In this document: positions 11,639 to 28,129 of the stretch, in pieces
Layout of the letters: each line of letters starts with the position of its first letter
Numbering within the stretch: position 1 is the stretch's first letter
Notes under the pieces: model-generated
Told to the model about the DNA's origin: nothing
The model's input: only the letters and a program-made list of their open reading frames with translations
Database searches by the model: none
Translations under genes and position numbers: made by a program
Origin: Kiritimatiellia bacterium
Lineage (GTDB): Bacteria; Verrucomicrobiota; Kiritimatiellia; RFP12; UBA1067
Assembly: GCA_017514235.1 (NCBI GenBank)
Contig: JAFWKK010000041.1
Span: 1 to 32,400, forward strand
DNA: 32,400 nt
Reading direction: 5' to 3'

Positions 11639-12301
11639 TCAGTACTTGTTTCCTGCATCCTTCATCGGCTGTATCTTGCCGAGGATCGGCACAACGACGC
11701 GCTCCCGCCGCACGATCTTGTCGCCGTTGAGGCGGTTAACGTCCGCCTCAAGCCCTATGTCGAAATGAAGCCGGTATATGTTCGAGCCGTTCAGGCTCCT
11801 GGCGTCGTAGCCCATGATGTCGGACATCTCCGTGCAGTCCTCCGCAAGAGCCAGTGCGCCGGGCCACAGCCAGCGCACGTGGCTGTCCTTGTCGGGGGTG
11901 CGCTCGTTGATCAGCATCTTGCGGTCGCCTACCTGCCATACGAGAAGGCGGATGGACGAGTCAGCCGTGCTGCCGATCGTCGTGCCGACCGTATGCCCGC
12001 TCATCTCGACCGAGTTGTACCCGCGCACGTCGCTTTCGTTCAGGCTCATTCCGCTCAGGAGCCCGGAGTAATGGTTGCCGGAAATGTCGGGAGACGCCTT
12101 GAAAAGAAGCTTGTCGCGCAGCTCCCGCATGGCCAGCGACAGCTCTGACTCCGCCATTGCCGTATGGAGCATGCGCTGCGCGGAAACGAACGACGCCATA
12201 ACCGCCGCCAGCACGATTACGCCGATCGACGCCGTGACCATCGTCTCGACAAGCGTGAAGCCCTTCCGGCCACGCGCCGTTCTCCCTATGGCCGCCGTCA
12301 T
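11639..12301 (-). CDS. Type II secretion/type IV pilus pseudopilin
   Basis: This 220-residue pseudopilin has the leader MTAAIGRTARGRKG ending in Gly, followed by the class III prepilin motif FTLVETMV and a hydrophobic helix (VTASIGVIVLAAVMASFVSAQ). The prepilin peptidase would cut after Gly14, and the helix packs into a pseudopilus in the envelope. The mature globular part has no match that I recognise. An upstream in-frame extension to 12385 lies inside the preceding gene; the ATG at 12301 overlaps that gene's stop by 4 bases (ATGA) and puts the leader at normal length. It is the last gene of a three-gene unit. Confidence 0.9.
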   Translation of the reverse strand: MTAAIGRTARGRKGFTLVETMVTASIGVIVLAAVMASFVSAQRMLHTAMAESELSLAMRELRDKLLFKASPDISGNHYSGLLSGMSLNESDVRGYNSVEMSGHTVGTTIGSTADSSIRLLVWQVGDRKMLINERTPDKDSHVRWLWPGALALAEDCTEMSDIMGYDARSLNGSNIYRLHFDIGLEADVNRLNGDKIVRRERVVVPILGKIQPMKDAGNKY

Positions 12302-12813
12302 TCCAGCACCCCCCTGTCGATCTGGCTCTTGTAGACGGACACCGGATGGCTGTAGTTCGCACTTCCGCAGAGTCCGTTCAGGCACTTGCGGTCACCGGCC
12401 GGCCCCCACTCCACGTCCACGTCAATACGCTTCACCTTTACGTTCGTACCGTGCCTGGCGATGGCTCCGGTGCCTTCGCACATGACTACCCGCACGACGA
12501 CACGCGGATCGCCGCCGGCATGCTCGAAGTTCAGCACCGGACAGTCGTTCGTCGTCATTGCCATAGCCGTGTCGGTCGCCGAGTCGTAGACACGCCCGTC
12601 CGCCTGCGCGGGCAGGTCGTCGTAGGACTTGTTCAGCCACTTCCACGCCGTGTCCCACGCAAAGGCGTCCGCAGCCAACAGCTCGGAGTTCTCGTGCGAA
12701 ATCTTGGCGGAGACGATCAGCCCCTCCATGAGCGCAAGCGTCATGAGCACGGCGATGGCGCCCGCCAGCATCACCTCCACGAGCGTGAAGCCGCCTCTCA
12801 TGCCTTTCGTCAC
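12298..12813 (-). CDS. Type II secretion/type IV pilus pseudopilin
   Basis: This 171-residue pseudopilin begins, from a GTG, with VTKGMRGG, followed by FTLVEVMLAGAIAVLMTLALMEGLIV. Thus it has a leader ending in GG, Glu at position +5 and one N-terminal helix. GTG at 12813 overlaps the TGA of the upstream gene by 4 bases (GTGA) and has a GGAGGG ribosome site at about 8 bases. The ATG at 12801 has only a poorly placed AAAGG, so GTG is preferred. A longer frame to 13113 runs inside the preceding gene and would bury the leader. The C-terminal domain carries paired Cys residues (CLNGLCG) that might form a disulfide. Confidence 0.88.
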   Translation of the reverse strand: MTKGMRGGFTLVEVMLAGAIAVLMTLALMEGLIVSAKISHENSELLAADAFAWDTAWKWLNKSYDDLPAQADGRVYDSATDTAMAMTTNDCPVLNFEHAGGDPRVVVRVVMCEGTGAIARHGTNVKVKRIDVDVEWGPAGDRKCLNGLCGSANYSHPVSVYKSQIDRGVLE

Positions 12814-13643
12814 GGCGACGGCCCTCCCCCTCCCGGAAACGCCGCGCCCAGCCACGCCTCCGCCGCAGAGGGCAGCGTCACGTAGAACCGGCACTTCATA
12901 ACCTCGGAAAGACGCTCGCGCAACTTCTCGTCCGCCGGATTCGTCAGCGCGACCAGCGCGACCTCGCCTATCCTGGCGAACGGAACGACCCCGCGGATGC
13001 GCAGCGTTTCCGCAGGAAAACGGCCCAACAAGTCGGCATTGCGCTCGAACGGCGAGACCGGAACCGGCGGAGTCCCGAACCGGTCGGCGAGAAACGCCAG
13101 GCACTTCTCGCACAGCTCGGAATTCTCTTTTTCGAGAATTGCAAGTGCAGAAACGAGAAAAACGCGGCCATCGGACGGCGAGGCGACGATCTGGTCGCGC
13201 AGATGCATGGCGTCTTCTTCAGAAGCAATCACCCCGTTGGACCACAGCAGCTCCACGAGCGCAACCTCGGAATCTACGGCGGTTTGCGTCTCCTCCACCG
13301 CAAGTTCGGCCGGCGTAAGGGGCTTCGGAGTCTCAGGAACAAGCTCGGGACCGGGAGCGGTAAGGCGGCGAATCTTCAGCACAAGTATCTTCGCCTCGTC
13401 CGTATCAACGGTCTCCAATCGCGGCAGAAGATCCGCTGCTGCCGCCAAATCGCCCTGTTTCAGCAGGAGGTTCGCCAGCGAAACGACGGCCTTCTTGCCC
13501 TTCTCGACCTCGCCGAGCTGATCGTACGCCACAGCCAGGAACTCCAGCGTGACGCGATCGTCCGGCATCAGCTGGAGCATCTGCTCGAAGTACTTTACGC
13601 CTTCTTCGAGGCGCGCGTCGAATTTAGGTGCAGGTTCTGCCAT
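12810..13643 (-). CDS. TPR protein with GspE N-domain-like C-terminus
   Basis: This 277-residue cytoplasmic protein has no signal peptide. Residues 10-95 form tetratricopeptide-like helix pairs (EGVKYFEQMLQLMPDDRVTL, then AYDQLGEVEKGKKA). After a Pro-rich linker, residues 125-265 (VALVELLWSNGVIASEEDA ... VVPFARIGEVALVALTNPAD) resemble the MshEN/T2SSE N-terminal domain that recruits secretion ATPases and can bind cyclic di-GMP in MshE. No ATPase domain follows. Coupled by GTGA to two pseudopilins, it is probably an adaptor for the pseudopilus machine. No ribosome site is clear before the ATG, and no promoter is obvious in 13644-13694. The family assignments are from pattern only. Confidence 0.72.
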   Translation of the reverse strand: MAEPAPKFDARLEEGVKYFEQMLQLMPDDRVTLEFLAVAYDQLGEVEKGKKAVVSLANLLLKQGDLAAAADLLPRLETVDTDEAKILVLKIRRLTAPGPELVPETPKPLTPAELAVEETQTAVDSEVALVELLWSNGVIASEEDAMHLRDQIVASPSDGRVFLVSALAILEKENSELCEKCLAFLADRFGTPPVPVSPFERNADLLGRFPAETLRIRGVVPFARIGEVALVALTNPADEKLRERLSEVMKCRFYVTLPSAAEAWLGAAFPGGGGPSP

Positions 13644-13694
13644 GACAGAACCGACTTAGCAGAAGGCGTGCCACAAAGTCTCCGGAAGGACGTG

Positions 13695-14720
13695 TTACAC
13701 GAACCTAATGTGATATGCGTTGCCGTTGAACGTCGCGCCACAGACGTACTGAGTGACGCCCTCGCAGAACTGCGAGTGGTACTCGAAGTGCTTGTGTCCG
13801 CAGAGAAGCGCCTTCAGGTTCTTCTGCTTCGGCAGCCATTCGACCAGAGTCTTGTTGATCTTGAGGTCGCCCTTGCCGGGACATGCCGCGAGCCACCCGC
13901 TGTGCAGGTCGGCGACGGTCTTAACCGCGTTGCGCGCCCAGTGGTTCGGCACCGACTGTATCACGTCCACCGAATGCTGCGCAAGCTCGGGGGTGTAGAA
14001 CGGAATGTGGTACGCGAGCACGGTCGGCAGACCCTTCGCGAACTCCTTCTTGATTGCGGAGAACTGAGCCTCGAACATGTCCTTGCTCATCCCCACGTTG
14101 TCGATCGTGACGATGTTCACGCCGTTGACCACCTTCGCCGCACAGGGGATGGCATTCGGAAAGGTCTTCTCCATCCGCGCCCGCGCATCCTTCAGCCATT
14201 CGCTTTTCGGCGACGGCTTGGCGCTGCCGCTGTACTCGTGGTTGCCGATGGCGTATGTCCATTTAAGCTCAGCCATGTCGCGGCGAACCTGGGCGAGGCC
14301 GCCCTCCGTAACGAAGTCCAAGAGATCGCCCGTGTGCAGGATCGGCAAGTTCTTCGCCTTCGCGTAGGCGAGCGCGGCAGCGAACATCTCGACGTTCTTG
14401 GGATGCCCGAACACCTTCAGTCGCGTGCGGAAATAGGCGATGTCCTTCTTGTCCGACCTCGCGAAGTCGTCTGAACCGAGCGTCACGAGGTGCGAATCGG
14501 AGATGTGCAGCACCTCGAACGGCTTCTTCGCGCCGACCTTGAGCTCAAGCGTCGTCGGCTTGAAGCCCTCCATAATCGGCATGTCAAGGAGCGCTTCGCC
14601 GGTCACCTCCGGCTCGTACCACTGCTGCCTGTCGTCTAGCGCGAAAAGAGGCAAGGCCCCTGCCGTCACGAACGCCGACGCCCCCAAGCCAATGAACGAT
14701 CTCCTGTTCATGTTCTCCAT
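13695..14720 (-). CDS. Tat-exported metallophosphoesterase (copy B)
   Basis: This 341-residue calcineurin-like phosphoesterase would hydrolyse phosphomono- or diesters outside the cytoplasm using two metal ions. All five motifs are present: DSH (75-77), GDLLD (131-135), GNHE (159-162), AYHIP with H238, and GHKH (308-311). The N-terminus MENMNRRSFIGLGASAFVTAG is a twin-arginine signal. The ATG at 14720 has AAGAAGGG upstream at 9 bases. An ATG at 14756 would overlap the previous stop (ATGA) but bury the signal behind 12 extra residues. It is a paralogue of the gene at 16072, sharing VGAKKPF, KxxxAKGLPTVL and the ending FNGxxYxIxF. Confidence 0.9.
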   Translation of the reverse strand: MENMNRRSFIGLGASAFVTAGALPLFALDDRQQWYEPEVTGEALLDMPIMEGFKPTTLELKVGAKKPFEVLHISDSHLVTLGSDDFARSDKKDIAYFRTRLKVFGHPKNVEMFAAALAYAKAKNLPILHTGDLLDFVTEGGLAQVRRDMAELKWTYAIGNHEYSGSAKPSPKSEWLKDARARMEKTFPNAIPCAAKVVNGVNIVTIDNVGMSKDMFEAQFSAIKKEFAKGLPTVLAYHIPFYTPELAQHSVDVIQSVPNHWARNAVKTVADLHSGWLAACPGKGDLKINKTLVEWLPKQKNLKALLCGHKHFEYHSQFCEGVTQYVCGATFNGNAYHIRFV

Positions 14721-14752
14721 TTTACCATTCCCTTCTTGTTTCGGTTTTTCGT

Positions 14753-16045
14753 TCATTTCCTGAAGCAAAAGATTTCCATCGCCCCTGGATCCATCCAATA
14801 CTCATTGGAATAGAGCGAAGCGGCCACGACCGTGCCGTCCGAACGGACGTATTTCACGCCAGGCGCGAGGTCTATCTTCAGCGTAAGTTCCTTGTCGGGG
14901 CTGCGATTGACGACCGCAAGGCATTCGTTGCCGCCGTTCCTGAGCAGCGAAACGACCGCTCCTCCGTCCGGCGTCTCAAGCGACTTGACCCACTTGGGCA
15001 GGTCCCCCTGTGCAAGCCGCACGGTGCCAGGCGGCAGGAATTCGCCCGTAAGCCGAGTCCCTTCGCCCGGCCATGGAACACCGGTATGCCGAACCTTCTC
15101 AACCTTCGCTCCCAGGAAGACGACGGCCCTGGCCTGAAGCTCCCTGTTCACGCGGCGCATCCGTTCGTAGACAGTGGAGCGCTTCCCGTCCGACGCAAGC
15201 GGACGCCCGTGCGAGAACATCTTCCCGGGGTCTTTCGGATCGACGCAGTAGTTGTAGTACCACAGGCCCTGCGCACCATAGGCGAGGTTGGAGTTCTGCT
15301 GAAGGCGCAGATGCCCCTCCGTCGCGATCGGATAGTCGTTGCCGGGCTTGTGACGGAGCGCACAGGAGATCGCGAACGCCCAGTACGGCCTGCCCGTCCG
15401 CTTCGACGTGTCGAGCACAGTCTCAAGCGAATGGTACCAGTTCGTCTGGAGATGGCAGTCGCCCGTCGCCGGGCGGAACGTCGGTGTCGGAAAGAGGCCG
15501 GGATTCAGCACCGGGTACTGGTCGAAGCTCAGTACCGGCGTTGGCACCTTCTCGGTGAACTGGCCGACGTATTCCTCGAACGTCGGCACCTTGTACCAGT
15601 ACTGCATCCTGTCCACGCGCCCGAACCAGTTGACGATGCAGGGATGGACCGAATCAACCGCCTGGATGAGGCGCACGGCACGCCCCAGGTTGTCAAAGTC
15701 GTTCACGCTCGGCTCGTCGCGAACGTAGTATGCCATGAGCGCGGGATGATCCTTCACGGCGGCAGCGAGCTGCGAGCCGTCCGCTTCGAACAGCTTGCGG
15801 TTCGCGAGAAGCAGCCTGATGCCGGTCCGCTGCGCGATGTCAAGGCACTTGCGCGCCTCTCCTGCGGTTCCGAAGCCCTGCATGAGCGCGGTAAGTCCGC
15901 ACTCCTTCGCCTCGCGGTAACGCATTTCCAGATTAGGCGACACGGCGCTGAAGCCGCTGTAGCCCATGATCGGCAGCTCATCCGCCGCGAACAGCATCCC
16001 TGCCGCAACGAGCGCAGAGCCAAACAAACTCTCTCTAACCATCAT
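14753..16045 (-). CDS. Secreted TIM-barrel protein, glycosidase-like (copy B)
   Basis: This 430-residue protein starts with a signal peptide (about MMVRESLFGSALVAAGMLFA), followed by what looks like a (beta/alpha)8 barrel and a C-terminal beta domain (about 340-430). It resembles clan GH-A glycosidases in layout: KDHPALMAYYVRDEP (98-112; E111 a possible catalytic acid), VLSFDQYPVL, and EGHLRLQQNSNLAYGAQGL are all conserved with its paralogue at 23334. I cannot assign a GH family. Two ATGs are adjacent, with AAAGG at 4 and 7 bases. It lies between the two phosphoesterase genes in the surface locus. Confidence 0.7.
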   Translation of the reverse strand: MMVRESLFGSALVAAGMLFAADELPIMGYSGFSAVSPNLEMRYREAKECGLTALMQGFGTAGEARKCLDIAQRTGIRLLLANRKLFEADGSQLAAAVKDHPALMAYYVRDEPSVNDFDNLGRAVRLIQAVDSVHPCIVNWFGRVDRMQYWYKVPTFEEYVGQFTEKVPTPVLSFDQYPVLNPGLFPTPTFRPATGDCHLQTNWYHSLETVLDTSKRTGRPYWAFAISCALRHKPGNDYPIATEGHLRLQQNSNLAYGAQGLWYYNYCVDPKDPGKMFSHGRPLASDGKRSTVYERMRRVNRELQARAVVFLGAKVEKVRHTGVPWPGEGTRLTGEFLPPGTVRLAQGDLPKWVKSLETPDGGAVVSLLRNGGNECLAVVNRSPDKELTLKIDLAPGVKYVRSDGTVVAASLYSNEYWMDPGAMEIFCFRK

Positions 16046-16071
16046 TCAACCTTTCAAACTCCTCAAGCCTC

Positions 16072-17112
16072 TCAACTGAATGAAATCTCGTAGCACTCGC
16101 CGTTGAAGTTGCGCCCGGCGATTACCACCGGCACCCTGCCGGCGAACAGGCCCTGCCACTCGAAGTGCAGATGTCCGCAGAGCATCGCCTTGAAGTTGCT
16201 CTGCTTCGCCAGGAACGCGAAAAGATCCCTGAACGCATTCGGAGCCTTGGTTTTCTCATAGTCCTCGCCCATCATGTAGTAGCTGTCGAGGTTGTTGGGC
16301 TTAGGAAAGTAGCTGGCCTTGCGTTCGCGGTGCATTTCGAGATCGGCCTCGTGAAGCTCCCGCGAGAACGGCGGCATGTGGCACATCAGCACAGTCGGCA
16401 GACCCTTGGCGAACTCGGCCTTGATCATCTGCACCATCCTGTCGCGGATGAACCGCGACATCTCGCAGTTGTCGAACGCCACGAAGTTCACGCCGTTCAT
16501 GACACGCGACGCGACTACGAGCGGGTTGCCTATGGCCTTCTCGTAGCGGGCGCGCAGCTGATCTTCCGCCGCAGCCGTGCGCGGGTTCATGCCAGGCGTA
16601 TGGAGACCGTGTCCCTCGTGGTTGCCGAGCGACGAAAAGACGTCAACCCCGGCGAACGACCGCTCGATGCAGGCGATGTTCGCCTCGCTGCGGAAGTCGA
16701 AGAGGTCGCCCGTGTTGAGCAGTGGGATTTTCTTCCGCTTGGCGTAGGCGATAGTGGCGGCAAGCGACTGCACTGCGAACGGGAAGCCGCCGCGCCCGAA
16801 GATGCCGTTGTTCCGCGCCTCGTAAAGGCGAAGGTCCCTTGAGCCATAGGAAAGGATGTCGGCGGCGTCAGCCATGCTCACATGCGTATCCGAGAAATGC
16901 AACGCCGCAAACGGCTTCTTCGCCCCGACCGAAAGCTTGATCTGCTTCGGCTGAAGATACTGGTTGATGAGATTGTCCTCCAGCGGCGCCTTTAGGTCGA
17001 GGCGCTTCTGGCGTTCAAGCGGCTGTGTGGCGTCGGATATCGCCGCCATAGCAGGCGCGAACATTCCCATCGCGCCAAGCGCAAGGAATCCCCTTCTGTT
17101 CAGGTCTGTCAT
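16072..17112 (-). CDS. Tat-exported metallophosphoesterase (copy A)
   Basis: This 346-residue calcineurin-like phosphoesterase starts with the twin-arginine signal MTDLNRRGFLALGAMGMF. Metal-binding motifs are complete: DTH (75-77), GDLFD (135-139), GNHE (163-166), CHMPPF and GHLHFEW near the C-terminus. It is paralogous to the gene at 13695 through most of its length, including VGAKKPF before the first motif and a FNGECYEI ending. The substrate is unknown; an exported enzyme of this type could remove phosphate groups from a glycan or phospholipid head group. The ATG overlaps the stop of the large FAD/esterase gene by 4 bases (ATGA), so both are made together. Confidence 0.9.
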   Translation of the reverse strand: MTDLNRRGFLALGAMGMFAPAMAAISDATQPLERQKRLDLKAPLEDNLINQYLQPKQIKLSVGAKKPFAALHFSDTHVSMADAADILSYGSRDLRLYEARNNGIFGRGGFPFAVQSLAATIAYAKRKKIPLLNTGDLFDFRSEANIACIERSFAGVDVFSSLGNHEGHGLHTPGMNPRTAAAEDQLRARYEKAIGNPLVVASRVMNGVNFVAFDNCEMSRFIRDRMVQMIKAEFAKGLPTVLMCHMPPFSRELHEADLEMHRERKASYFPKPNNLDSYYMMGEDYEKTKAPNAFRDLFAFLAKQSNFKAMLCGHLHFEWQGLFAGRVPVVIAGRNFNGECYEISFS

Positions 17113-20100
17113 TTCGTATTCTGTCCTCTCTTTTTTCCGCCTTCGGTAAGGATGGCGAGCAGGTCGTCATGATGGCCGTAGCGGCAGGCGATGCCGCGCG
17201 CGTCGCATATCTCGGCGAACTTATGCCGGAACGTACCTGAATGCGTGGGATCCTTCGCCAGCTCGCCCGGCTTCGGCGCGGCGGGGCCGTCATGGACGAA
17301 CGCCGGCGCGCGCGACGGCGTGCAACGCCTGAGCAGGCCAGCCGGAGAATATTTCTCGATCCACGGCAAAACCTCCGCACGGTGGTCGAACCACGTCTGG
17401 AAGTCAGGATAACCGAAAAGGCGGGCACCGTACTTGGAATTCGGAATCCACTCGCGCATCTCCTTCGGGTCGATGGAGGTCTGCGGGTACTGTGTGTACA
17501 CGGCGCGTATGCCGAATTCGTTGTCGCCGGCGAGCGACGCGTAGAGGACCGCATGCGCTCCCGCGCTGCTTCCGGTAAGACCGATGCGCGACAAATCGAT
17601 GTTCCACTCCGCCGCCTTCGACCGCACGAACCTTATCGCCGCCATGACGTCGTCCATGCACACTCTCACGGGCGGTTTCACGTCCCCGGCATCCTTCAAG
17701 AGCCTGTATTCCACCGAAACGAGCGCGACGCGCTTCGCCATGCATTTCGGTATGCGCCCTCCGAGTCGCGAATCCCGCCTGTCGCCGTTCATGAACCCGC
17801 CGCCATGCACAAATATGATCGCAGGCGTCGCAGGGCCCTTCTCGGGCAGCCAAACGTCCATCTTCTGCATCGGATGCTTGCCATACGCCACCGAGTCGAA
17901 CGTAGCCTTCGGCAGCGGCGGCGGCTCGTCCTTCGCCTTCCCCTTCGCCTTTTCGCCTCCTTCGTAGACGCGGATTTCCTGGATGCAGGCGTAAGGCGCG
18001 CCCCACGTCGCGTCGACCTTCACGTTGACCGCCGCGACCTTGACCGGATCGAACCGATGAACCTGAAGGCGCTTCATGTTGTCCTTCACCTCGGCCAACT
18101 TGCGCCACTTTCCATCGGCAAGGCCCCAGACAGAATAGTCCTTCACCAGCATCTTCGGCTGCGGCCACATGACGCCCCCGAACGTCAGACCCGAGTCAAA
18201 CACTATACGCACCTCGCTCGCCGTCACCGGCTTCGGAAAGTCAAGCCGTATCGCCTGGGGGAGAGGCTTGGCAGGGTCCGACCGCCAGGCATGGGTGCAA
18301 GAGCCGTCCTCTGCCGCGTATATCTCCGGACGCGACAAGCCGTCAATCACATACTCCGGCTTGGCGTCCACGCTCCCAGTCAGAGCGGGCTTCGTGTAGA
18401 ACGCGAGCTGGTAGAAGTTCCGGATGTCGAACTTGCCGCCGGCCCTCACATATGCCATGCATCCGCCTTCTGGATAGACGTGGATGCGACGGAACCAGTC
18501 CACGCCCTTGCATATCCGCACCTTCAGCCACACGTACTTTTTAGTCGGCTTAAGCGGAGCGGACGAGGCAAACCGCACGAACTGTGCAGAGCCGCCCTTC
18601 GGCTCGATCGTTGCCGTCATCGTGCCGAGCGGCGTCCGCGTGGCATTGTCCACTGCGATATCGTCGCTCTCCATCACGTCCATCACAAGGCTCTGCGCCG
18701 TGCCGTTGCGGTTGCGCATGTAGCAGTTAACCTCGTCGAGCCTGTCAACGTCTCCACGGGGGAAGCACGCCGCGAGCTCAAGCCACAGCGACTCGACGAA
18801 CGCCCAGTTGGAGTTGACTCCGCAGAAATCCAGGTCGTCTTCGCCGTAAACTATACGCCGCATTGTGGACGTCGCCTTGACCTTCGCAGTGCGCGCCAGG
18901 TCAAGCGGATCCTCGTTCTTCACGCCGGGAATGAACTGGTCATCCTTCAAGAGCGCCTGCTGGAGCGCCTTGATGCGCTTCGCGCCCACGTCTCTCACGG
19001 ACAGCCCCTCGCGCACCGCGATCGCGGCGGCGGTTCCGGCCGCCTGGCCGATGGTGAAGATGGTCCCCATGATGCGCGTGGAGCCGAGGGCGGCGTGAGT
19101 GACGGAAATGTTGCGTCCCGCCATATAGAGGTTTGACATGTCCTTGGAGTATATGCAGCGGTACGGAATCGTGTAGATGCGAGTCTGGTCCACCGACCAC
19201 CAGCCGTTGCCCTTCGGGTTCATGACGCCCATCGGGTCGTGAAGGTCGAGCGCCCACCCGCCGCACGTTATCGCGTCCGGAAACCGCCTCCCCTCGCGGC
19301 AGTCGGTGGAGGTGAGCACGTAGTCGCCGAGCAGGCGCCACCCCTCGCGTCGTCCGTTGTGGATCTTGATCTCGTCAAGCCGGCTCGTGCGGGCCTTCGC
19401 CCCGAACGTCGGGTGCTTCCTGAGCCAGCCCCAGTAGTCAAGGTGTATCCTTATCAGCTCGTCGCGCGCTCGCTCCGGGTCGTCGAGGTCATCGAACGTG
19501 CCGGGATGCTCCAGCCACCAACGCGCCTGAATGCCGTTGACATCGGGACGGTTGAAGCCTTCCGGCAGGATTTTCGCCCACTCGGGCACCTCGAACGGCT
19601 CCTCCTTGCCCGTGCTGTGGTACAAGTAGTCGTCTATGCATCCGCTCATCGTGAGCGTGTCGGCCTTGTCCGGCGCGTCCTTCTCGCCGAACTCGCCCTT
19701 TGCCTCGCGCCCGAACATCCGTGACGCGCCGACGAAGTATCCCAGCCATCCGTCACCCGTGCCGTCTATGAACACCTTGCCGCGATAGCTCACCCGCCCC
19801 CCGGTCAACGTGCTGTTCGCCGTCACCGACACGATCCTGTCGCCCTTCCTTTCGGCGGCAAGGACGCGCTCGTTAGACTTTTCCGTGATGAGCGGCTCGG
19901 CGTCGACCATCATGCGATACGCCGCACTCTCGGAGCACTTCCTGCTGCGCCGCAGAAGCCGCGCCTCCTCCAAAATGCCGCCCTCGCGCGAATCGGCGAC
20001 GCCGTCCTTGTAGTTGTTGCCGGAGCCTCCGATGCTCGTGTGTTGCTCGATGCTGTTGTTACCGCCGAGGACCGGGCGGTCGTGTACGAGGAGCGTCTTC

Positions 20101-20780
20101 ATGCCGTGCCTCGCGGCGGCGATGGACGCCCCGAGCCCGCCCGGTCCTGCGCCAACGACCACAACGTCGTATTCGCCGCCATCCGCAATCTTCGGGTCTG
20201 CGCCCGAAAGTCTCCGTCGCTCAGATGCAAGGGCCTCGCCGCCTTCCGGCGGAACGTAGCCAAGGTCTGTGGTGAAAAGCACCGCGTCACAGCGGGCGAA
20301 GCCGCCGGCAAGATCGACAAGCGCAACCTCCGTCTTGCCTGCCGCGAGCGTGAAGTCGCCCGCATTCTCCCAGCGCCAGCCAGGCTTCTTTGAAACGCCG
20401 AGTACTCCGCTACGCTTGCCGCCGACCTCAAGCGCGAATCGTCCGGGCGAGAACTCCGGCAGCCAGTCCTTCGTGCGCACCCACGCCCGCCAAGTGCCGG
20501 ACGACGGTAACGTGACCTCGGTCTTCGCCGGAGCAAGCGGCTTCAGCACACCCTTGGAGATGAGATACGCGCTCCCCATCTTGTGGACGAACTGCGTGTC
20601 GATCTCCCAGCCGCCGTAGTCTGCGAACTCCTCCGCCTCAAGCCAAAGGAAGCCCTTCGCCGCCTCGCGGCATTCTTTCGCAGAGGCGCGGAACTTCTTC
20701 AGCGTCTCTGCCGGGTCCTCCCCCGCCGCGGAAAGCGCCAGCAGAATTGCGGCGCACAAGAGATGTCCGCCAAACTTCAT
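17109..20780 (-). CDS. Secreted FAD oxidoreductase-esterase fusion protein
   Basis: This 1223-residue protein has at least four parts. A signal peptide (1-20) leads to a carbohydrate-binding-like beta domain (about 44-172, FLWLEAEEFADYGGWEI). An FAD-dependent oxidoreductase follows, with the dinucleotide site VVVGAGPGGLGAS (207-219) and late FAD motif MAGRNIS (553-559). A discoidin-like domain spans about 800-942. The C-terminal alpha/beta-hydrolase esterase (about 958-1210) has the oxyanion motif HGGGF (992-996), nucleophile elbow GSSAG (S1072) and a candidate Asp (D1164) and His (H1203 or H1204). FAD_oxidored proteins of this type often occur with polysaccharide-degrading genes. The join is intact, with no frameshift. 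The start overlaps the previous stop (ATGA). Confidence 0.85.
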   Translation of the reverse strand: MKFGGHLLCAAILLALSAAGEDPAETLKKFRASAKECREAAKGFLWLEAEEFADYGGWEIDTQFVHKMGSAYLISKGVLKPLAPAKTEVTLPSSGTWRAWVRTKDWLPEFSPGRFALEVGGKRSGVLGVSKKPGWRWENAGDFTLAAGKTEVALVDLAGGFARCDAVLFTTDLGYVPPEGGEALASERRRLSGADPKIADGGEYDVVVVGAGPGGLGASIAAARHGMKTLLVHDRPVLGGNNSIEQHTSIGGSGNNYKDGVADSREGGILEEARLLRRSRKCSESAAYRMMVDAEPLITEKSNERVLAAERKGDRIVSVTANSTLTGGRVSYRGKVFIDGTGDGWLGYFVGASRMFGREAKGEFGEKDAPDKADTLTMSGCIDDYLYHSTGKEEPFEVPEWAKILPEGFNRPDVNGIQARWWLEHPGTFDDLDDPERARDELIRIHLDYWGWLRKHPTFGAKARTSRLDEIKIHNGRREGWRLLGDYVLTSTDCREGRRFPDAITCGGWALDLHDPMGVMNPKGNGWWSVDQTRIYTIPYRCIYSKDMSNLYMAGRNISVTHAALGSTRIMGTIFTIGQAAGTAAAIAVREGLSVRDVGAKRIKALQQALLKDDQFIPGVKNEDPLDLARTAKVKATSTMRRIVYGEDDLDFCGVNSNWAFVESLWLELAACFPRGDVDRLDEVNCYMRNRNGTAQSLVMDVMESDDIAVDNATRTPLGTMTATIEPKGGSAQFVRFASSAPLKPTKKYVWLKVRICKGVDWFRRIHVYPEGGCMAYVRAGGKFDIRNFYQLAFYTKPALTGSVDAKPEYVIDGLSRPEIYAAEDGSCTHAWRSDPAKPLPQAIRLDFPKPVTASEVRIVFDSGLTFGGVMWPQPKMLVKDYSVWGLADGKWRKLAEVKDNMKRLQVHRFDPVKVAAVNVKVDATWGAPYACIQEIRVYEGGEKAKGKAKDEPPPLPKATFDSVAYGKHPMQKMDVWLPEKGPATPAIIFVHGGGFMNGDRRDSRLGGRIPKCMAKRVALVSVEYRLLKDAGDVKPPVRVCMDDVMAAIRFVRSKAAEWNIDLSRIGLTGSSAGAHAVLYASLAGDNEFGIRAVYTQYPQTSIDPKEMREWIPNSKYGARLFGYPDFQTWFDHRAEVLPWIEKYSPAGLLRRCTPSRAPAFVHDGPAAPKPGELAKDPTHSGTFRHKFAEICDARGIACRYGHHDDLLAILTEGGKKRGQNTK

Positions 20781-23311
20781 CTGAGGAGCATCAGCGTGCC
20801 GGCAAGCCTTTCAACGCGCCCGACGATTGCAAACCAGCCCAAGTTCCAGTTCTCGGAAGACGGCGCAAACGTCCAAGAGGATACAACCGGCATCGAGGCG
20901 TTTGGCTCGGTCAACTTGCCGCAGCGCTCCCACTTGCCGTTCGCCGTGCCGTCGTGGCGGTAGACGTGCACGAAGTTCAGCCCTTCAAGACCGAGCGGCG
21001 AATACTTGAACTTCAACTTCGCGGACGTAAACGTCACGGGGTTCACCGGCTCGTCGATCTCCGGCCCGTCGGAGAAGTACCCGATGCGCCACACGGCGAT
21101 CACCTTGTCCGCGCCAAGCCCGTCCAGCCCAGCCGGTATGTCGTCGCGGTCGGTCGCGTACAGCTCCGAGAACACGAAGTGGTTCAGCTCCGCACCCGTG
21201 AACTCGTAGTTGAACGTGTTAGTGAGGCGGCGGTTGCCAGTGCCAAGGTCCACCTTGGCGTCGAAGCAGTCGCCCACGCACTTGTAGCCACTCCTGTTCG
21301 GCAGACTGCGCGGCAGTTTAAGCCGCCCCTTGTTCACCGCGAACCAGCCGTTCGTGCCGGATGGGTTGGCATCGGTGTTGGCGTAGTTGAGCGCTCCGAA
21401 CCGGCCAAAGTCGAGATCGCGCATCTCGCCCTCGCCATCGGCTATGACCTGACCGTAGTGCGTTATGCCGGAAGGTATGTTTGCCTCCGTCACGTATGTC
21501 CTGGGATCGGAGAATGCAATCTTGCCCCAGCCGCGTATGCGACCTTTTACCGTGCTGACGTATCCATTCAAATTGATCGGGTTGTATCTACCATTGCTAA
21601 TGTAACTGGGATTCTCGGGATCGATGTCGAAGAATATCGAACCACCGCGCATGGCAACCGTACCCGACTGCCCCACACCCGTGGTCGATGTAGCGTTGTA
21701 TGCGATTCTAAGATCATGCACATTAGTGACAACGCTGTTGCCACCCACTTCAAGCGTCCCAACCCCTTGGCTGCCCCAGCGCGGAACGCAGATATTCGTC
21801 GAAAAGAGCGTCGCCGTATCGGAGAGTTTCACAAAACCAGTGGTACCTGCCACACTCGTCTGCCCTACGAACAGATCATTCGCATGCAGCTGGGCGTTTT
21901 CCGCAACATTCAAAACGCCAGTGCCACCGCCGTTGTAGCCAACGACAAACGAACTGTTCGTCACATACAACGCGGAGTCTCCTGCAAGGGAAACGATTCC
22001 TTTCGCACCCGCATCGACGCCAAGATAGACATAATACTGCATGTCCATTGTCGCGGAATTTGTGAGCGTCAGCATTCCGGTCGAGTTGGAACCATAACCG
22101 ATTTGCACATTGTCCTTGACCACGGTCGCTGCTGAATTGGTCATCGTCATGATTCCGACAGCGCTTGCTGCATGACCGATCCGCAGTGCGTATCCGAGTT
22201 TGAGGCTACTGTTGCTACCCATTGTTACAGTTCCTGTGGACGACGATGCGCAACCAAGATACATTGATCCTGTACCGAGTTCGATACTGCTATTACCACC
22301 CATCGTAATGGTTCCAAAGGAAGACACGCCATTGCCGGCATAGATCGCCTTCGTGGGCACGATCATCTTAGACGAATCGTTGAGCGTGAGCGATCCAATG
22401 CACTTTTCACGCTGCCCCAAATACACGGCGTTCGATGCCGCGAAAATGGAACTGTCATTCAAAATGATACGACCTTCCGCGCCTGTGTAGCGCTTATCCT
22501 TCGATGAGCCGCCGACATGCCATTCCGCATTACCAGAGAGATAGCCATTGTCGCTCAGTGTGATGATACCAAGCGAACCATTGCTGAGACCGAGCGCTAC
22601 ATGTTGCCCCGCGAAGAAACGCCCGTTGCCTCTCACGATGATTTCGTTTTGGGAATAGACTTTGCTCGACAACCCCATCCAGATTTCCCCTGTGTTGTCG
22701 AAGAAATCGCCTTCGTTGATTATTCCGTTGAACTTGTTGGCCGAGTTTCCATCTACGCCAAAGTAGAATGTATACTCATTTCCGCCGGTCTTTCTCACGG
22801 TCGCGCCTGCATGGTTATAGAACAGGCTTGGTGTCCCCTTAATCTGCATCCGAAGCGCATTCTCAACCGTCAACGTTCCAAAGTTGTCAAACTGCGCAAG
22901 CGTACCCTTTGAGGCGCTGTATGTGCCAAGGTCCAGGTTATAGGCCGTTATCGAACCATAGTTTGTCACAACACCCATGGCGCTTCCAGACTTGGCAAGC
23001 GACATTCCGCCAGCTTTTCCCTTCTTCGCCGTCAGCGTCGCGCCATGCTCTACATGGAGCGTGCCTATATCGACGCACAGGTTTGATGATACCGCGCTCT
23101 CACCAGACTGCACAATCAGCGGACTTGTCTTTAGGCCCGCCTGCGAAATCGTAGCCGCATCTTCCGTCGTGGGCAACGTCCCACCCCAGGCGGCGGCGTT
23201 AGACCAGTAGTACGGCGCAGAGCCTTGCGGGGTATACGAGACGTTTGCGGCGAGCAATGACAGGGAAACCATCGCCAGTGCCGCTAGAATTGTTCCACTT
23301 AGTGTTCTCAT
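20777..23311 (-). CDS. Secreted beta-helix surface protein (copy B)
   Basis: This 844-residue exported protein has a signal peptide (1-21, MRTLSGTILAALAMVSLSLLA). It then has about a dozen loose repeats of 23-25 residues (about 246-560), each of the type G-T-hydrophobic-T-hydrophobic-x-x-N-S-S followed by YLG, with regularly spaced Gly, Asn, Ser and Thr. This is the pattern of a right-handed parallel beta-helix, as in autotransporter passengers. No C-terminal membrane barrel is present. Residues 590-844 form a separate module, from GWGKIAFSDP to the ending NWNLGWFAIVGRVERLAGT, shared with the protein at 24619. The repeat region is visibly richer in A/T than the module. Role as adhesin, scaffold or polymer binder is inferred. 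Confidence 0.75.
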   Translation of the reverse strand: MRTLSGTILAALAMVSLSLLAANVSYTPQGSAPYYWSNAAAWGGTLPTTEDAATISQAGLKTSPLIVQSGESAVSSNLCVDIGTLHVEHGATLTAKKGKAGGMSLAKSGSAMGVVTNYGSITAYNLDLGTYSASKGTLAQFDNFGTLTVENALRMQIKGTPSLFYNHAGATVRKTGGNEYTFYFGVDGNSANKFNGIINEGDFFDNTGEIWMGLSSKVYSQNEIIVRGNGRFFAGQHVALGLSNGSLGIITLSDNGYLSGNAEWHVGGSSKDKRYTGAEGRIILNDSSIFAASNAVYLGQREKCIGSLTLNDSSKMIVPTKAIYAGNGVSSFGTITMGGNSSIELGTGSMYLGCASSSTGTVTMGSNSSLKLGYALRIGHAASAVGIMTMTNSAATVVKDNVQIGYGSNSTGMLTLTNSATMDMQYYVYLGVDAGAKGIVSLAGDSALYVTNSSFVVGYNGGGTGVLNVAENAQLHANDLFVGQTSVAGTTGFVKLSDTATLFSTNICVPRWGSQGVGTLEVGGNSVVTNVHDLRIAYNATSTTGVGQSGTVAMRGGSIFFDIDPENPSYISNGRYNPINLNGYVSTVKGRIRGWGKIAFSDPRTYVTEANIPSGITHYGQVIADGEGEMRDLDFGRFGALNYANTDANPSGTNGWFAVNKGRLKLPRSLPNRSGYKCVGDCFDAKVDLGTGNRRLTNTFNYEFTGAELNHFVFSELYATDRDDIPAGLDGLGADKVIAVWRIGYFSDGPEIDEPVNPVTFTSAKLKFKYSPLGLEGLNFVHVYRHDGTANGKWERCGKLTEPNASMPVVSSWTFAPSSENWNLGWFAIVGRVERLAGTLMLLR

Positions 23312-23333
23312 TTTTACATGTCCCTTTATTTTT

Positions 23334-24587
23334 TCAAGGCGCCTGAAATATCTCGGCCATGCCAGGGTCTATCCAGTATTCATCCGTATAGAGGGCGGCG
23401 TCCAGAATCGTGCCGTCAGCCCTGATATACTTGACCCCACTGGCAAGTTTTATCTTGAGCGTGAGCTCCCGCTCAGCGCTCCTATTCACGACAACCAGAT
23501 ATTCCTTGCCACCGTTCGTAAGCCTAGAGACGACGGCGCCGCCATCGGGAGTCTCCAGCTGTGCGACCCACGTTGGCAAATCCTTCTCCGACAATCTAGT
23601 TACGCCCAGGGGGATGCTTTCGCCTGTGTGGCGGACAGACTTCACATCGGAACCAAGAAACACGAAAGCTCTGCGCTGCAGTTCCAGATTGACGCGCCGC
23701 ACTCTCTCGTACACCGTCGTGCGTCTCCCGTCGACTGCAAGCGCAAGACCGTGCATCATTATCTTCGACTTGTTGACATCACGAAGATTCGTCCTGTAGT
23801 CGTAGTAGATAAGCCCCTGCGCGCCATATGCTAGATTCGCATACTGCTGAAGACGCAAATGGCCTTCTTCCGGTACGGGATTGTCACCGTCGGGCTGATG
23901 GCGCATCGCGCACAGGCAGGCATGCGCCCAGAACGGCTTGCCGCTACGCTTGGATGCATCAAGCACGGTCTCCAGCGCATGGTACCAGTTCGTCATGACA
24001 AGGCATTCGCCATTCACGGGGCGGAACGGAACCGACGGAAACCGCCCTTCGATCAACACTGGGTACTGGTCGAAGCTCAACACAGGCGTAGGAATCTGCT
24101 CCAGGAAGCGCGAAATGTATTCTTCGTAGGAATTCACGCCGTACCAGCGCTTCATCTTGTACACGCGCCCGAAAAGATTGACCACGCAGGGGTGAACGGA
24201 GTCAATGGATTGGATGTCACGTACGACCTGCCCTATTTTCGGCAACAGCGAAACGTCCGGCTCATCCCAAGCATAATGAAAAAGCAATGCGGGATGATCC
24301 TTAATGGCGTTAACGAACGCAATGTGGTTGGTTTTGTACTGATCGGTGTAGAATGAAGCCTTGATGCCTGCGCTCTGCGCAATATCCAAAGCTGCAAGCG
24401 CCTGAGACGTTTTTCTGGGCACGAGTGCCAGAGCGGTAAAGCCCGCATCGCGAACTTCCTCCATCTTCGCCTTGTCCATATTCGCAATCGGCTCGCTGCT
24501 GAATGCGATGAGCGGCAACTCTTCGGCACCCATGGCTACGACGACGACAAGCCCCGCCGCAGCAGTAATAATTCCTGCGATTCTCAT
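23334..24587 (-). CDS. Secreted TIM-barrel protein, glycosidase-like (copy A)
   Basis: This 417-residue protein is a clear full-length paralogue of the gene at 14753, by eye about half identical. It has a signal peptide (MRIAGIITAAAGLVVVVAMGA), then a barrel with KDHPALLFHYAWDEP, VLSFDQYPVL, TNWYHALETVLDASKR and EEGHLRLQQYANLAYGAQGL. A C-terminal beta domain reads DGGAVVSRLTNGGKEYLVVVNRS. Residues kept in both copies, especially the Glu in DEP and the Glu in the EGHLRLQQ strand, are the best candidates for catalysis. No GH family is assigned. It lies between the two beta-helix genes, 22 and 31 bases away, so it is in the same transcript. Confidence 0.7.
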   Translation of the reverse strand: MRIAGIITAAAGLVVVVAMGAEELPLIAFSSEPIANMDKAKMEEVRDAGFTALALVPRKTSQALAALDIAQSAGIKASFYTDQYKTNHIAFVNAIKDHPALLFHYAWDEPDVSLLPKIGQVVRDIQSIDSVHPCVVNLFGRVYKMKRWYGVNSYEEYISRFLEQIPTPVLSFDQYPVLIEGRFPSVPFRPVNGECLVMTNWYHALETVLDASKRSGKPFWAHACLCAMRHQPDGDNPVPEEGHLRLQQYANLAYGAQGLIYYDYRTNLRDVNKSKIMMHGLALAVDGRRTTVYERVRRVNLELQRRAFVFLGSDVKSVRHTGESIPLGVTRLSEKDLPTWVAQLETPDGGAVVSRLTNGGKEYLVVVNRSAERELTLKIKLASGVKYIRADGTILDAALYTDEYWIDPGMAEIFQAP

Positions 24588-24618
24588 TTATCTCACACCC
24601 CTTCCGTCCTGTCTCGCG

Positions 24619-27090
24619 TTACAAAACGGTGATAATCATTCCGCCAAGCCGCTCTTCGCACGCCAAGACAGCAAACCAGCCGAAATTCCAGTTCTCCGAG
24701 CATGGTGCGAGGGACCGGGTGTCAATGATCGGGTTGTCCACTGAAAGCTCGCGATAACCGACTTTGTGCCACTTCCCGTTCGCCGTGCCGTCGTGGCGGA
24801 AGACGTAGACATATTTGAGGCCCTCTGCGCCTGTAGGGCAGTATCGGAACCTAATCGTGGCAGAGGTGAACGCCGCCGGATGCGTCGGCTCGTCAATCTC
24901 CGGCCCGTCGGAGAAGTGGCCGACGCGCCAGACGGCGAGCGTCTTGTCCGCATCAATTTCGTCAAGCCCCGCCGGAATGTCATCGCGGTCGGTTGCGTAC
25001 AGTTCCGCAAACATGTAGTTATTCGTCTCCGCGCCCTCAAGAGTGTAGTTGAACGTATTCATGAGACGCCTCGCCTTCGAAGGGCTAACCTTCCAGTAGT
25101 CGCCCACGCAACGGTGGCTCGCGGATTTGCGCGGCAGGCTGCGCGGCAGTTTCAACCGTCCCTTGTTCACCGCGTACCAACCGTTCGTGCTGCCGTTGAG
25201 GTTCGCATCCGTGGTATCGTAGGTCAAAACACCAAGCCGACTGAAATCAAGGTCGCGCATCTGCCCTTCGCCGTCGGCAATGATCAGTCCGTAGTGTGTA
25301 ATGCCGCCTGGCTTTTCGTAGTCGCCCGGATTCTCGGAGTTCATGTCTCTGACCATCGCGATTGGATCGGTGAACGCCAGCTTGCCCCAACCGCTGATGG
25401 CGCCCGCCGTCTTGTCACGCAAGGGATTGAGATAGATGACGGCACTGTTCTTGCTATACCCGATATTGAACAGCATCGTGCCGCCGCGCATCCTCAGCAA
25501 GCCGCCTTTCCCGGCCGCCGTGTTGGCGTCATAAGCCGCGCCGATCTGGATGTTAAAGACATTCGAGACCACGCCGCCATCCGCCACCACAAACTCGCCG
25601 GCCGAACTGCTCCCCGTAGAAACCGTGATGTTCGATGAGACCACGCATCCGCCCGCCACGTTAAAGGTGCCTTTCGAACTGCTTCCCTCCGCCACCGTAA
25701 TGCTCGGCGCGAGGACATAGCCGCTGTTTGTGACCGTCACCTGCCCTGATGACAGCCATTTGCTCGCGATGGCCAGCAGATTGGTCGCGGCCTCTGCTGG
25801 ATCAATCTTGGAGACTAACAGTCGGGCGTTGTCTGCAACCGTCAGTGAAGCTGTCGTATCGCGCGACGCGCCTACCAGCAGTTCCCGGTGCAGCACCGAA
25901 ACCGAGGCGTTGTCCTTGATCATAAGCGAACCTTTACCTTGCCGTCCGCTGGAAATTTGGAGATAGTTGTTGAATACGGCTGTTGAAGAATCGTCGAACG
26001 TCATATGCCCCGTGGAAGTATAGTCTTCATCATTGCCGTGGGCAATGTAGCCATTCGAGGTGCACTCCAGATGCGACTGGCCGCCGAAAGTGGCCGTTCC
26101 CAAACCATTCGAGTAGCACCCGACGCAAAAAACGTCATTCGTAACATGCGCCGAATCCGCCGCCACCAATTCGCCCGTCGTGGAAGAGGCACTTCCACCC
26201 ACATAAAGATACGTACCGGCTTTTAGACTGGCATTGTCGTGCAGCTCCACCCGTCCTGCTCCTAGGCCCATTGCGCCTACATACAGAACATTCGGAAGAT
26301 CGACACGAGAGTTGTCGTTCAGCGACAGGCATCCGAATGAATTCGTGTTCGCTCCAAGATGGATGTATCCTTTTGTCTTCACAATGGCCGCATCATTCGA
26401 AAGGATGATGTACGCCAATGAGTTTGGACCTCTGCTGTTCTGGTTCACACGGGCGGGGGCGACGATGTTTCCAGAACCTGTCAAGCGACTATTGTCCTTC
26501 ATCACAAGGGTGCCGAGAGTGTTGTTCGCTTCGCTCATATAAATGTGGCCATTGGCCGTAAAGGTTCCGGACTTTGCAAGCACGATATGGTTTGTGGTTC
26601 CGGAATTCGCGCCCGCACGAAGCTGGTCGCCAGAGGGGAAAGTAAAATTCCCTTCAGAAATGAGTGTGCTCACAGTTCCAGCAGCATTCGCGCCCAGATA
26701 GAAGTTGTAGCCGCCGCCGCCCGTCTTGTTCACGGTGCCGCCCTCGTGGTTGTAGAAGATGCTCGGCGTACCCACGATGCCCATGCGGAGATGGGTGCCG
26801 ATTGTCAGCGTGCCATAGTTGTCAACTTGCGCCAACGCACCCTTACTGGCGGAGTACTTGCCTAGGTCAAGCTCCTTGACATTCATTGTACCGTAGTTTT
26901 CGACTTTGCCAGTCGCACCGGCAGTCGTGGCAATTGACATGTTGCCTGTCACCTCAAAACTGTCGCCTCTTTCAACGACCAGCACGCCGTTCAAGTTTGT
27001 ACTTGCGATTGTCGTCGAAGTGGCATGCGCCGTAGCCATTCCAACTACCGCGGCGACTGCCGCGAGGATTACCTTGCATACGGTTCTCAT
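24619..27090 (-). CDS. Secreted beta-helix surface protein (copy A)
   Basis: This 823-residue protein starts with the signal peptide MRTVCKVILAAVAAVVGMATAHA. It continues with repeats of about 23-25 residues (for example SFGCLSLNDNSRVDLPNVLYVG) typical of a parallel beta-helix. It ends with the C-terminal module seen in copy B: GWGKLAFTDP, ADGEGQMRDLDFSRLGVL, NKGRLKLPRSLP, AELYATDRDDIPAGLD and NWNFGWFAVLACEERLGG. A longer frame starts at 27210 but adds 40 residues before the signal peptide and lies in the leader region. The ATG at 27090 has AAAGGA at 8 bases. It is the first gene of the surface operon, behind the promoter at 27228. Confidence 0.75.
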   Translation of the reverse strand: MRTVCKVILAAVAAVVGMATAHATSTTIASTNLNGVLVVERGDSFEVTGNMSIATTAGATGKVENYGTMNVKELDLGKYSASKGALAQVDNYGTLTIGTHLRMGIVGTPSIFYNHEGGTVNKTGGGGYNFYLGANAAGTVSTLISEGNFTFPSGDQLRAGANSGTTNHIVLAKSGTFTANGHIYMSEANNTLGTLVMKDNSRLTGSGNIVAPARVNQNSRGPNSLAYIILSNDAAIVKTKGYIHLGANTNSFGCLSLNDNSRVDLPNVLYVGAMGLGAGRVELHDNASLKAGTYLYVGGSASSTTGELVAADSAHVTNDVFCVGCYSNGLGTATFGGQSHLECTSNGYIAHGNDEDYTSTGHMTFDDSSTAVFNNYLQISSGRQGKGSLMIKDNASVSVLHRELLVGASRDTTASLTVADNARLLVSKIDPAEAATNLLAIASKWLSSGQVTVTNSGYVLAPSITVAEGSSSKGTFNVAGGCVVSSNITVSTGSSSAGEFVVADGGVVSNVFNIQIGAAYDANTAAGKGGLLRMRGGTMLFNIGYSKNSAVIYLNPLRDKTAGAISGWGKLAFTDPIAMVRDMNSENPGDYEKPGGITHYGLIIADGEGQMRDLDFSRLGVLTYDTTDANLNGSTNGWYAVNKGRLKLPRSLPRKSASHRCVGDYWKVSPSKARRLMNTFNYTLEGAETNNYMFAELYATDRDDIPAGLDEIDADKTLAVWRVGHFSDGPEIDEPTHPAAFTSATIRFRYCPTGAEGLKYVYVFRHDGTANGKWHKVGYRELSVDNPIIDTRSLAPCSENWNFGWFAVLACEERLGGMIITVL

Positions 27091-27227
27091 CTTGAGATTC
27101 CTTTCGTTGTTGTCGTGTTGGGCTGTTTGAAGAAGACTTCCATCGCGTCGGACGCCATCAAGGAGAGGTCCGACCCTCAAAATGTGCGTTTTTATCACTA
27201 TATGCATCATTCGCGTTTGGTGCTTGC

Positions 27228-27256
27228 ATTATACCAAAATTCCCCAACCGCCGCAA
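27228..27256 (-). promoter_or_regulatory. Promoter of the surface operon
   Basis: On the minus strand, TATAAT (27228-27233), preceded by TTTTGG (extended -10), is 17 bases from TTGCGG (27251-27256), a partial -35. The predicted leader to the ATG at 27090 is about 130 bases, long for this window; I see no riboswitch or stable hairpin in it. The -35 lies inside a 22-base repeat. Confidence 0.65.
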
Positions 27257-27265
27257 CCGCTGTTG
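27244..27265. repeat. 22-base direct repeat, copy 1
   Basis: This 22-base sequence (starting CCAACCGCCGCAACC on the plus strand) recurs exactly at 28097-28118. Similarity extends about 7 bases further (GGGGCCCC against AGCCCC). The two copies, in the same orientation, flank the toxin-antitoxin pair. Copy 1 also holds the -35 region of the surface operon promoter. Confidence 0.85.
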
Positions 27266-27322
27266 GGGCCCCGCCTGTAGAAAGCTGCCTTTGCAGATTT
27301 CGGCCAGAGAGAATAACAAGTC

Positions 27323-27730
27323 CTACCGCATGAATGACGATGGCGGCAAAACGGCGACAAGCGACGAATCGTAATGGGTGGGGTTGCGCGTGTATATCTG
27401 CGAACATTTCGCTTTCATGGCACACTGCTGCTGTATGTCGTCTTCGTAGTCCTTGTCGTGGAAATCTGCCGCCCGCGAAAGGATATCGGCGTCGACAGGG
27501 ACGACCTTGAATATGCGTAAGATTATCCGTACGGCAATCATCGCCGTTGTCTCACTCTTAAGTCGCCTTATCACATAATGGACGTTGTTGACGGAAATCG
27601 CGGCGACGTACGCCTCTACATTCCCCGCTTCGGCACTGGCCCAAATGTTAAGCGCGTCATAATAGAAGCCTTCACGTTCAAGAAGGACATCAAGAAGTAT
27701 GTTAGTGTCTACAAATATCCGCTTCTTCAT
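27323..27730 (-). CDS. vapC: PIN-domain toxin (VapC-like ribonuclease)
   Basis: This 135-residue PIN-domain protein is probably a magnesium-dependent RNase toxin. It starts MKKRIFVDTNILLDVLLERE, where D8 and D14 fit the first acidic metal site. A later HDKDYEDDIQQQCAMK block supplies the C-terminal acidic residues, and FYYDALNIW and NNVHYVIRRL match related PIN proteins. The ATG at 27730 overlaps the antitoxin stop by one base (TGATG). An in-frame extension to 27787 lies inside the antitoxin gene and is not needed. No terminator is clear between the stop and the surface promoter at 27228. Confidence 0.88.
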   Translation of the reverse strand: MKKRIFVDTNILLDVLLEREGFYYDALNIWASAEAGNVEAYVAAISVNNVHYVIRRLKSETTAMIAVRIILRIFKVVPVDADILSRAADFHDKDYEDDIQQQCAMKAKCSQIYTRNPTHYDSSLVAVLPPSSFMR

Positions 27731-27990: not shown

Positions 27991-28017
27991 CACACACCTC
28001 CTTTATACATATTGTTT

Positions 28018-28055: not shown

Positions 28056-28096
28056 CAGGCGCGGGGCAACTCATTTCATCGTTTCATCCCACTCCT

Positions 28097-28118: not shown

Positions 28119-28129
28119 AGCCCCTCACG

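Follow-up and report, generated by a model that had tools for sequence, protein, structure and literature searches.

Esterases of the BD-FAE type have been found in polysaccharide utilisation loci (PULs) for xylan, and BD-FAE, acting on xylan substrates, is reported to have released both ferulic acid and acetic acid (PMC8165983). Fused esterases are also known as a kind: in multicatalytic carbohydrate-esterase fusions, of which CE6-CE1 is an example, an esterase and a second catalytic domain lie in one exported protein (PMC7110780). We analysed a locus in which a BD-FAE esterase domain is fused to an FAD oxidoreductase, and in which the same domain, at the same chromosomal site of a sister species, is fused to a GH42-like barrel. 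Among the titles listed in searches of open-licence literature, none describes this locus. An earlier note on this DNA had stressed the paired paralogues of the locus, but we consider the natural exchange of partners of one esterase domain at one site to be of greater interest.

The stretch of DNA analysed (the window) is 32.4 kb long and constitutes an entire contig of a 3.96-Mb Kiritimatiellae MAG; the habitat of the source bacterium is the gut. Seven intact, co-directional ORFs run on the minus strand from 27090 to 13695 in the order beta-helix A, barrel A, beta-helix B, FAD::esterase, phosphoesterase (PE) A, barrel B and PE B. The features of the locus, and the three genes that follow it, are as follows.

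27228..27256, minus strand: probable promoter, TTGCGG-N17-TATAAT, about 137 bases ahead of the first ATG
24619..27090, minus strand: beta-helix protein A, 823 aa; ATG at 27090, Sec-type N-terminus
23334..24587, minus strand: barrel A, 417 aa, GH42-like TIM barrel; Sec-type N-terminus, C-terminal end ...IFQAP-stop
20777..23311, minus strand: beta-helix protein B, 844 aa; Sec-type N-terminus
17967..20780, minus strand: FAD_oxidored region of the fusion, residues 1-938; PF12831, E=3.3e-75; Sec-type N-terminus
17109..17966, minus strand: Lys/Pro-rich linker and BD-FAE esterase domain, residues 939-1223 of the fusion; PF20434, E=9.9e-22
16072..17112, minus strand: metallophosphoesterase A, 346 aa; PF00149, E=3e-07; Tat-type N-terminus
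14753..16045, minus strand: barrel B, 430 aa, GH42-like; Sec-type N-terminus
13695..14720, minus strand: metallophosphoesterase B, 341 aa; PF00149, E=3.7e-08; Tat-type N-terminus
11639..13643, minus strand: three co-directional genes after the seven (gaps 51, 8 and -4), in place in the genome of the relative L056 too
12810-13643, minus strand: the first of these, an MshEN/TPR protein; PF05157
12298-12801, minus strand: the second, a 167-aa protein with a pilin-like N-terminus; no Pfam match
11639-12301, minus strand: the third, an N_methyl pseudopilin-like gene; PF07963

The gaps between the seven, recomputed from the ATG starts, were 31, 22, -4, -4, 26 and 32 bases, in agreement with the unbroken run described in the earlier note; the likely ATG of the first gene is 27090 rather than 27210. 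Three families each occur twice, as had been claimed, with identities within the pairs of 38% (beta-helix), 52% (barrel) and 35% (PE). The run may extend past 13695 by read-through into the three co-directional genes. The hexamers of the probable promoter are kept ahead of the first gene in L056 (TTGCGG-18-TATAAT, with a spacer of 18 rather than 17); a consensus promoter scan of the window did not list the site. BLASTN of the DNA around the promoter gave no convincing match between the window and L056. Signal types were assigned by eye from the N-termini: five proteins have a Sec-like start and both PEs a Tat-like start containing an RR motif (NRRGFLAL and NRRSFIGL), in agreement with the claim that all seven carry export signals. 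TatC is encoded in the source genome, and no anchor or sorting signal was present among the Pfam and NCBIfam matches of the locus proteins.

The nearest named relative that we found was L056, a Kiritimatiellae MAG from goat ileum (JAFRDO010000026.1) belonging to the same genus; L056 and G004 (contig G004:C89) were treated as one genome. Since the 17 called genes downstream of the locus (window 217-13643) match L056 in order and at 89-100% identity, the site of the locus is orthologous in the two genomes. The upstream flanks are unlike: the window has type II secretion-like genes together with a toxin-antitoxin-like pair of the PIN-domain kind, and L056 has an AXE1 esterase; among the upstream genes of the window only T2SSE was matched in the L056 genome, at 44%. 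Every part of the locus adjoins at the orthologous site of L056, although in another order: beta-helix A, barrel A::esterase, PE A, barrel B, beta-helix B, FAD and PE B. The possibility that these genes are nowhere neighbours in a related genome therefore does not apply, because L056 holds all of the parts together. Relative to L056, the block [esterase-PE A-barrel B] in the window is exchanged with [beta-helix B-FAD]. Identity to L056 was 77% for beta-helix A, 55-57% for beta-helix B, 91% for barrel B and 92% for the esterase domain; barrel B is also 80% identical to a barrel in the genome G102. The whole locus was found only in these two genomes. The gene orders, both fusions and the block swap are observed directly, as are the conservation and the separate PE groups described below, while the direction of the swap is one that we infer: in G112, which belongs to another genus, beta-helix B and FAD are followed by PE B as in L056, and the order in the window is thus probably the rearranged one.

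The FAD::esterase gene encodes a single protein of 1223 residues that combines FAD_oxidored and BD-FAE. Residues 205-610 cover positions 1-416 of the PF12831 profile and contain the dinucleotide motif GAGPGG; the FAD region also gave sub-threshold matches to Golvesin_C and F5/8 C. The BD-FAE domain was recognised by the PF20434 profile and carries HGGG and GSSAG (GxSxG) motifs. Its counterpart in L056 lies behind barrel A in a single ORF of 704 aa (9971-12085), and the FAD enzyme of L056 is a protein of 936 aa without an esterase. The FAD enzymes of L056 and G112 end in ...EIRVY-stop and ...EIRVYE-stop, respectively, whereas that of the window continues through a Lys/Pro-rich linker into the esterase. 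Conversely, the C-terminal end of barrel A in the window is ...IFQAP, as in the barrel of G102, whereas barrel A of L056 reads on into the esterase.

Among the matches listed, none of the 22 FAD genes in the mapped regions carried an esterase; 15 of the 22 were complete to the C-terminus and four ran off the contig. Esterase matches lay inside called genes at 45 of 47 places, and the sole one that also matched FAD was the window's own; the other two places had no called esterase gene (G104:C598 and G079:C228). The gene maps of the relatives were drawn with a crude caller based on codon scores, which may put starts in the wrong place and which called no gene in L062. Separate esterases of 296 residues with signal-like starts were present in L200 and L201. 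One contig of G099 has at its edge an esterase with a signal-like N-terminus and a Lys/Pro stretch, and on a second G099 contig the end of an esterase precedes PE A; the two pieces presumably belong to one gene. As the relatives of the FAD enzyme and of the barrel stop where the fusions begin, and as esterases also occur as separate proteins, the two fusions appear to be derived, each independently of the other. The simplest reading is that a secreted esterase, presumably once separate, was captured twice independently. Conceivably, the ancestor was instead a barrel A::esterase that later received an insertion precisely at the boundary; this would require a coincidence at the stop codon.

Esterase matches occurred in 23 of the 115 genomes of the window's family. 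We scanned 11 fused or long esterase proteins; nine had an N-terminal WbsX barrel, in one the esterase is followed by a GH95-type domain, and the last has no named N-terminal family. Fusion also affects the FAD family elsewhere: L222 (2254-7284, in G086) encodes a 1676-residue protein in which a GH78-type alpha-L-rhamnosidase is fused ahead of a related FAD enzyme, and the gene caller mapped similar long FAD proteins in L223 and L228. The window and L056 amount to a natural experiment in which one esterase domain, at one site in two sister species, has two different partners. The same domain on two partners therefore permits a direct test of whether fusion serves enzyme synergy or export only.

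Between the window and L056, dS was 0.16-0.39 for nine of the 17 downstream genes and 0.46-0.60 for six of the eight locus parts; it reached 1.22 in barrel A and 1.42 in beta-helix B. Codons ~125-300 of beta-helix A showed almost no synonymous change (pS 0.02-0.10), whereas the rest was mostly near 0.5, and this stretch includes an exact match of 182 bases; this mosaic fits exchange with other lineages. The PEs and the esterase had dN/dS values of about 0.08-0.14. Searches of 13000-28200 revealed four exact direct repeats of at least 18 bases, the longest of 24 bases and none at a junction, and no inverted pairs of at least 28 bases; phase variation by inverted repeats was set aside, as no such pair lies in this interval. 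As the window is one MAG contig and the only other complete locus has a different order, both the gene order and the FAD::esterase fusion could be an error of assembly. We regard this as very improbable, since three junctions, at 17900-18000, 23311-23334 and 14720-14753, would have to be wrong together and yet leave intact ORFs with operon-like spacing, the repeats are short and lie away from the junctions, and the raised dS of barrel A and beta-helix B against values of ~0.5 fits real recombination.

Both PEs matched PF00149 above the cut-off and contain all five motifs (DxH, GDxxD, GNHE, H and GHxH) that we take to be those of the active site of calcineurin-like metallophosphoesterases. In a tree of 25 rows, which is far fewer than all of the matches found and from which L057 was left out as a duplicate of L056, PE A grouped with sequences from L056, G102:C1, G099, G064 and G080 (99/98), and PE B with sequences from L056, G031, G112 and G102:C81 (100/99). 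Both groups lie inside one group of 12 rows (93/89) with an inner order that is not fully resolved. Judged from these sequences, the two groups may be old sisters, and an older duplication outside this locus is therefore possible. Elsewhere, PE A has a barrel as its neighbour in G102, and in G099 an esterase; in G112, PE B comes after beta-helix B and FAD, and G102 holds both PE types in separate loci.

Trees of the other two families comprised 19 barrels and 17 beta-helix proteins, with L057 again omitted; 412 residues of L056's barrel A were used, and the final 270 of each beta-helix protein. In the barrel tree, A and B share one clade with the barrel of G102 (99/99), which joins barrel B (100/99), so that either the barrel duplication predates the locus or a gene has moved. 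The C-terminal domains of the beta-helix proteins of the locus form one clade with an unresolved centre. Because there are close paralogues within each family, duplication is plausible, indeed likely, for the barrels and beta-helices, and it would predate the divergence of the two species. The earlier note had proposed one module, duplicated and then specialised; this part of the proposal is plausible for the barrels and beta-helices but is not supported for the PEs, which fall in separate supported groups at different loci outside. In its strict form, duplication in place of a three-family module (beta-helix, barrel and PE) followed by specialisation appears distinctly improbable: the two single clades, the presence of beta-helix, PE A and a barrel together in G102, and the perhaps sister PE groups would fit it, but the members of those PE groups lie at other loci of other genera, G102 keeps its two PE types apart, and its barrel sides with barrel B. 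The locus looks best read as two joined modules, [esterase-PE A-barrel] and [beta-helix B-FAD-PE B], because the PEs belong to separate older groups found at different loci of other genera. A further recurring pair consists of a 623-635-residue protein and a third kind of PE (L132 752-3560, L133 4943-7779, L154 5539-8378 and L136 8248-11917). In L132 and L136, the copies scanned, the former was CBM_4_9-like and had a GH42-like part. The pair has PE B as its neighbour in G112 and G031 and is close to a relative of PE B in G102, but in the window's genome it is on a different contig, C53.

The likeness of the barrels to GH42 is weak. The GH42 Pfam match was just above the cut-off for barrel A and below it for barrel B, the model matched seven of the 19 family members at 0.01, and a profile built from the 19 rows matched a GH42 chain of the PDB at E=5.5e-4. 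All 19 keep DEP and the Asp of (F)DxYP, and we take the Glu of DEP to be the GH-A acid/base on beta-4. In residues 218-230, 17 of the 19 barrels, including both of the window, have no Asp or Glu after P220, and the other two (L072 and L073) have an Asp at column 227; we assume that this stretch corresponds to the beta-7 strand that bears the nucleophile in GH42. As the barrels of the window have no acidic residue at the expected position of the nucleophile, ordinary retaining chemistry is doubtful, and they may bind glycan or cleave it by another route. In PDB sequence searches, neither barrel B nor PE B had a match above chance level, and an AlphaFold model of barrel B made from four sequences (pLDDT 48) was kept out of the fold search. 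At an E-value no higher than 1e-30, the barrel family occurred in 25 of the 346 genomes of the class, and 19 of the 25 belong to the window's family. In this little-studied gut lineage, the GH42-like family of unclear chemistry and the export-type FAD enzyme, which is elsewhere fused to a rhamnosidase, deserve biochemical work.

The beta-helix proteins are the fastest-diverging proteins of the locus. A Pfam scan gave no match for either, autotransporter domain included, and their matches to the T5SS/PEP-CTERM repeat were sub-threshold. The AF2 model of beta-helix B is a beta-helix with a pLDDT of ~88-97 over residues 281-480, and much of its C-terminal domain is of low confidence. A PDB sequence search returned nothing for this protein, and Foldseek against the PDB returned nothing at an E-value of 0.001 or better (best, 0.037); the top matches, none of them significant, were autotransporter passengers.

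Our favoured reading, which we hold to be reasonably probable, takes the locus for a PUL-like set of exported proteins that arose from two older modules, probably acts on a decorated plant-derived glycan and contains an esterase that has changed partners. The substrate, the reactions and the surface location are those that we infer. The beta-helix proteins would be exposed rods that hold or bind the polymer, the BD-FAE domain would strip acyl esters, the two Tat-type metallophosphoesterases would cleave phosphoesters, the FAD enzyme would oxidise a sugar, and the barrels would bind or cleave glycan. The esterase, once a separate secreted protein, would have lost its own signal in the source genome and come to form the C-terminal end of the FAD enzyme there, and in the sister species it would have become the C-terminal domain of barrel A; fusion would keep it exported and physically beside another enzyme. 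In the relatives, GH127, GH2 and AXE1 are neighbours of the modules and GH78 and WbsX are fusion partners, and these families would point to plant glycans. The repertoire for cutting esters and phosphoesters given in the earlier note was corroborated by the above-threshold BD-FAE and PF00149 matches with the motifs looked for, and the locus may, as the note proposed, bind and strip a decorated polymer at the cell surface.

Alternatively, the locus might mainly serve the surface of the host or of the cell itself, with beta-helix adhesins and neighbours that remodel the cell's own surface glycan, and be no nutrient locus. The rapid divergence of the beta-helix proteins, the mosaic beta-helix A, the resemblance, though not significant, to autotransporter passengers and the absence of a transporter or regulator among the seven speak for this; the associations of BD-FAE, GH78, GH127, GH2 and WbsX in relatives point instead to the breakdown of plant glycans, and the low dN/dS of the PEs and the esterase also argues against it. 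We consider a surface system a real but minor possibility and retain the PUL-like gene set. A more speculative extension, which we think improbable, is that Kiritimatiellae possess recombination-prone and partly oxidative glycan systems in which the FAD enzyme oxidises a sugar, the nucleophile-less barrel completes a non-hydrolytic cleavage, and the upstream exported neighbour repeatedly captures the esterase. If so, sister species carry different two-enzyme chimaeras at one chromosomal site.

Several features flank the locus. Downstream, a Gfo/Idh/MocA-type oxidoreductase with a Tat-like start (TRREMLKASAA) lies with a lipoprotein-like xylose-isomerase-type barrel (4936-8918), and a second gene (4936-6147) resembles a Gfo/Idh/MocA oxidoreductase by eye. 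Such sets presumably resemble those of oxidative glycoside-cleavage pathways, and on the speculative oxidative reading given above these genes might supply the remaining steps. Both sides carry type II secretion or pilus-like genes, with MshEN and N_methyl downstream (11639-13643) and T2SSE and T2SSF upstream (28229-30951); the downstream genes are kept in place in the genome of L056 and the upstream ones are not. The claim that the locus has no dedicated transporter agrees with the Pfam scan of the seven proteins, but these secretion-type genes border the locus. Ahead of the locus, at 27244-28124, two direct repeats of 28 bases that are 93% alike enclose a PIN-domain/DUF6364 toxin-antitoxin-like pair (27323-27990); this pair has a perfect TTGACA-18-TATAAT promoter (28055-28026). 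The 20-base core of these repeats occurs twice in the genome at up to two mismatches, and the region looks like a cassette inserted right before the locus promoter. Rfam gave nothing at gathering thresholds, and ARAGORN found no tRNA.

Among known systems, the PULs of Bacteroidota contain co-directional exported enzymes for a decorated glycan and BD-FAE-type esterases; the locus resembles them in its co-directional genes and its BD-FAE domain, and probably in the export of its enzymes and the kind of substrate. The locus differs in having no SusC/SusD, sulfatase or regulator and in having beta-helix proteins and an FAD enzyme: the Pfam scan of the seven proteins confirmed the earlier statement that SusC/SusD and sulfatase families are lacking, and no SusC/SusD pair was present among the seven and the ten neighbours scanned. 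As a cluster of carbohydrate-active enzymes it has a clear BD-FAE, a GH42 likeness on either side of the cut-off (barrel A just above, barrel B below) and export judged by eye. Like the T5SS/PEP-CTERM repeat and PATR beta-helix proteins, its beta-helix proteins combine an export-type N-terminus with a beta-helix, but their matches lie below the curated cut-off and they have no Pfam autotransporter domain. The WbsX-BD-FAE fusions of the same bacterial family likewise place BD-FAE C-terminally behind another domain and differ in the N-terminal partner. Fusions of the CE6-CE1 type share with ours the union of an esterase and a second catalytic domain in one exported protein, whereas the partner here is an FAD oxidoreductase and, at the same chromosomal site of the sister species, a GH42-like barrel.
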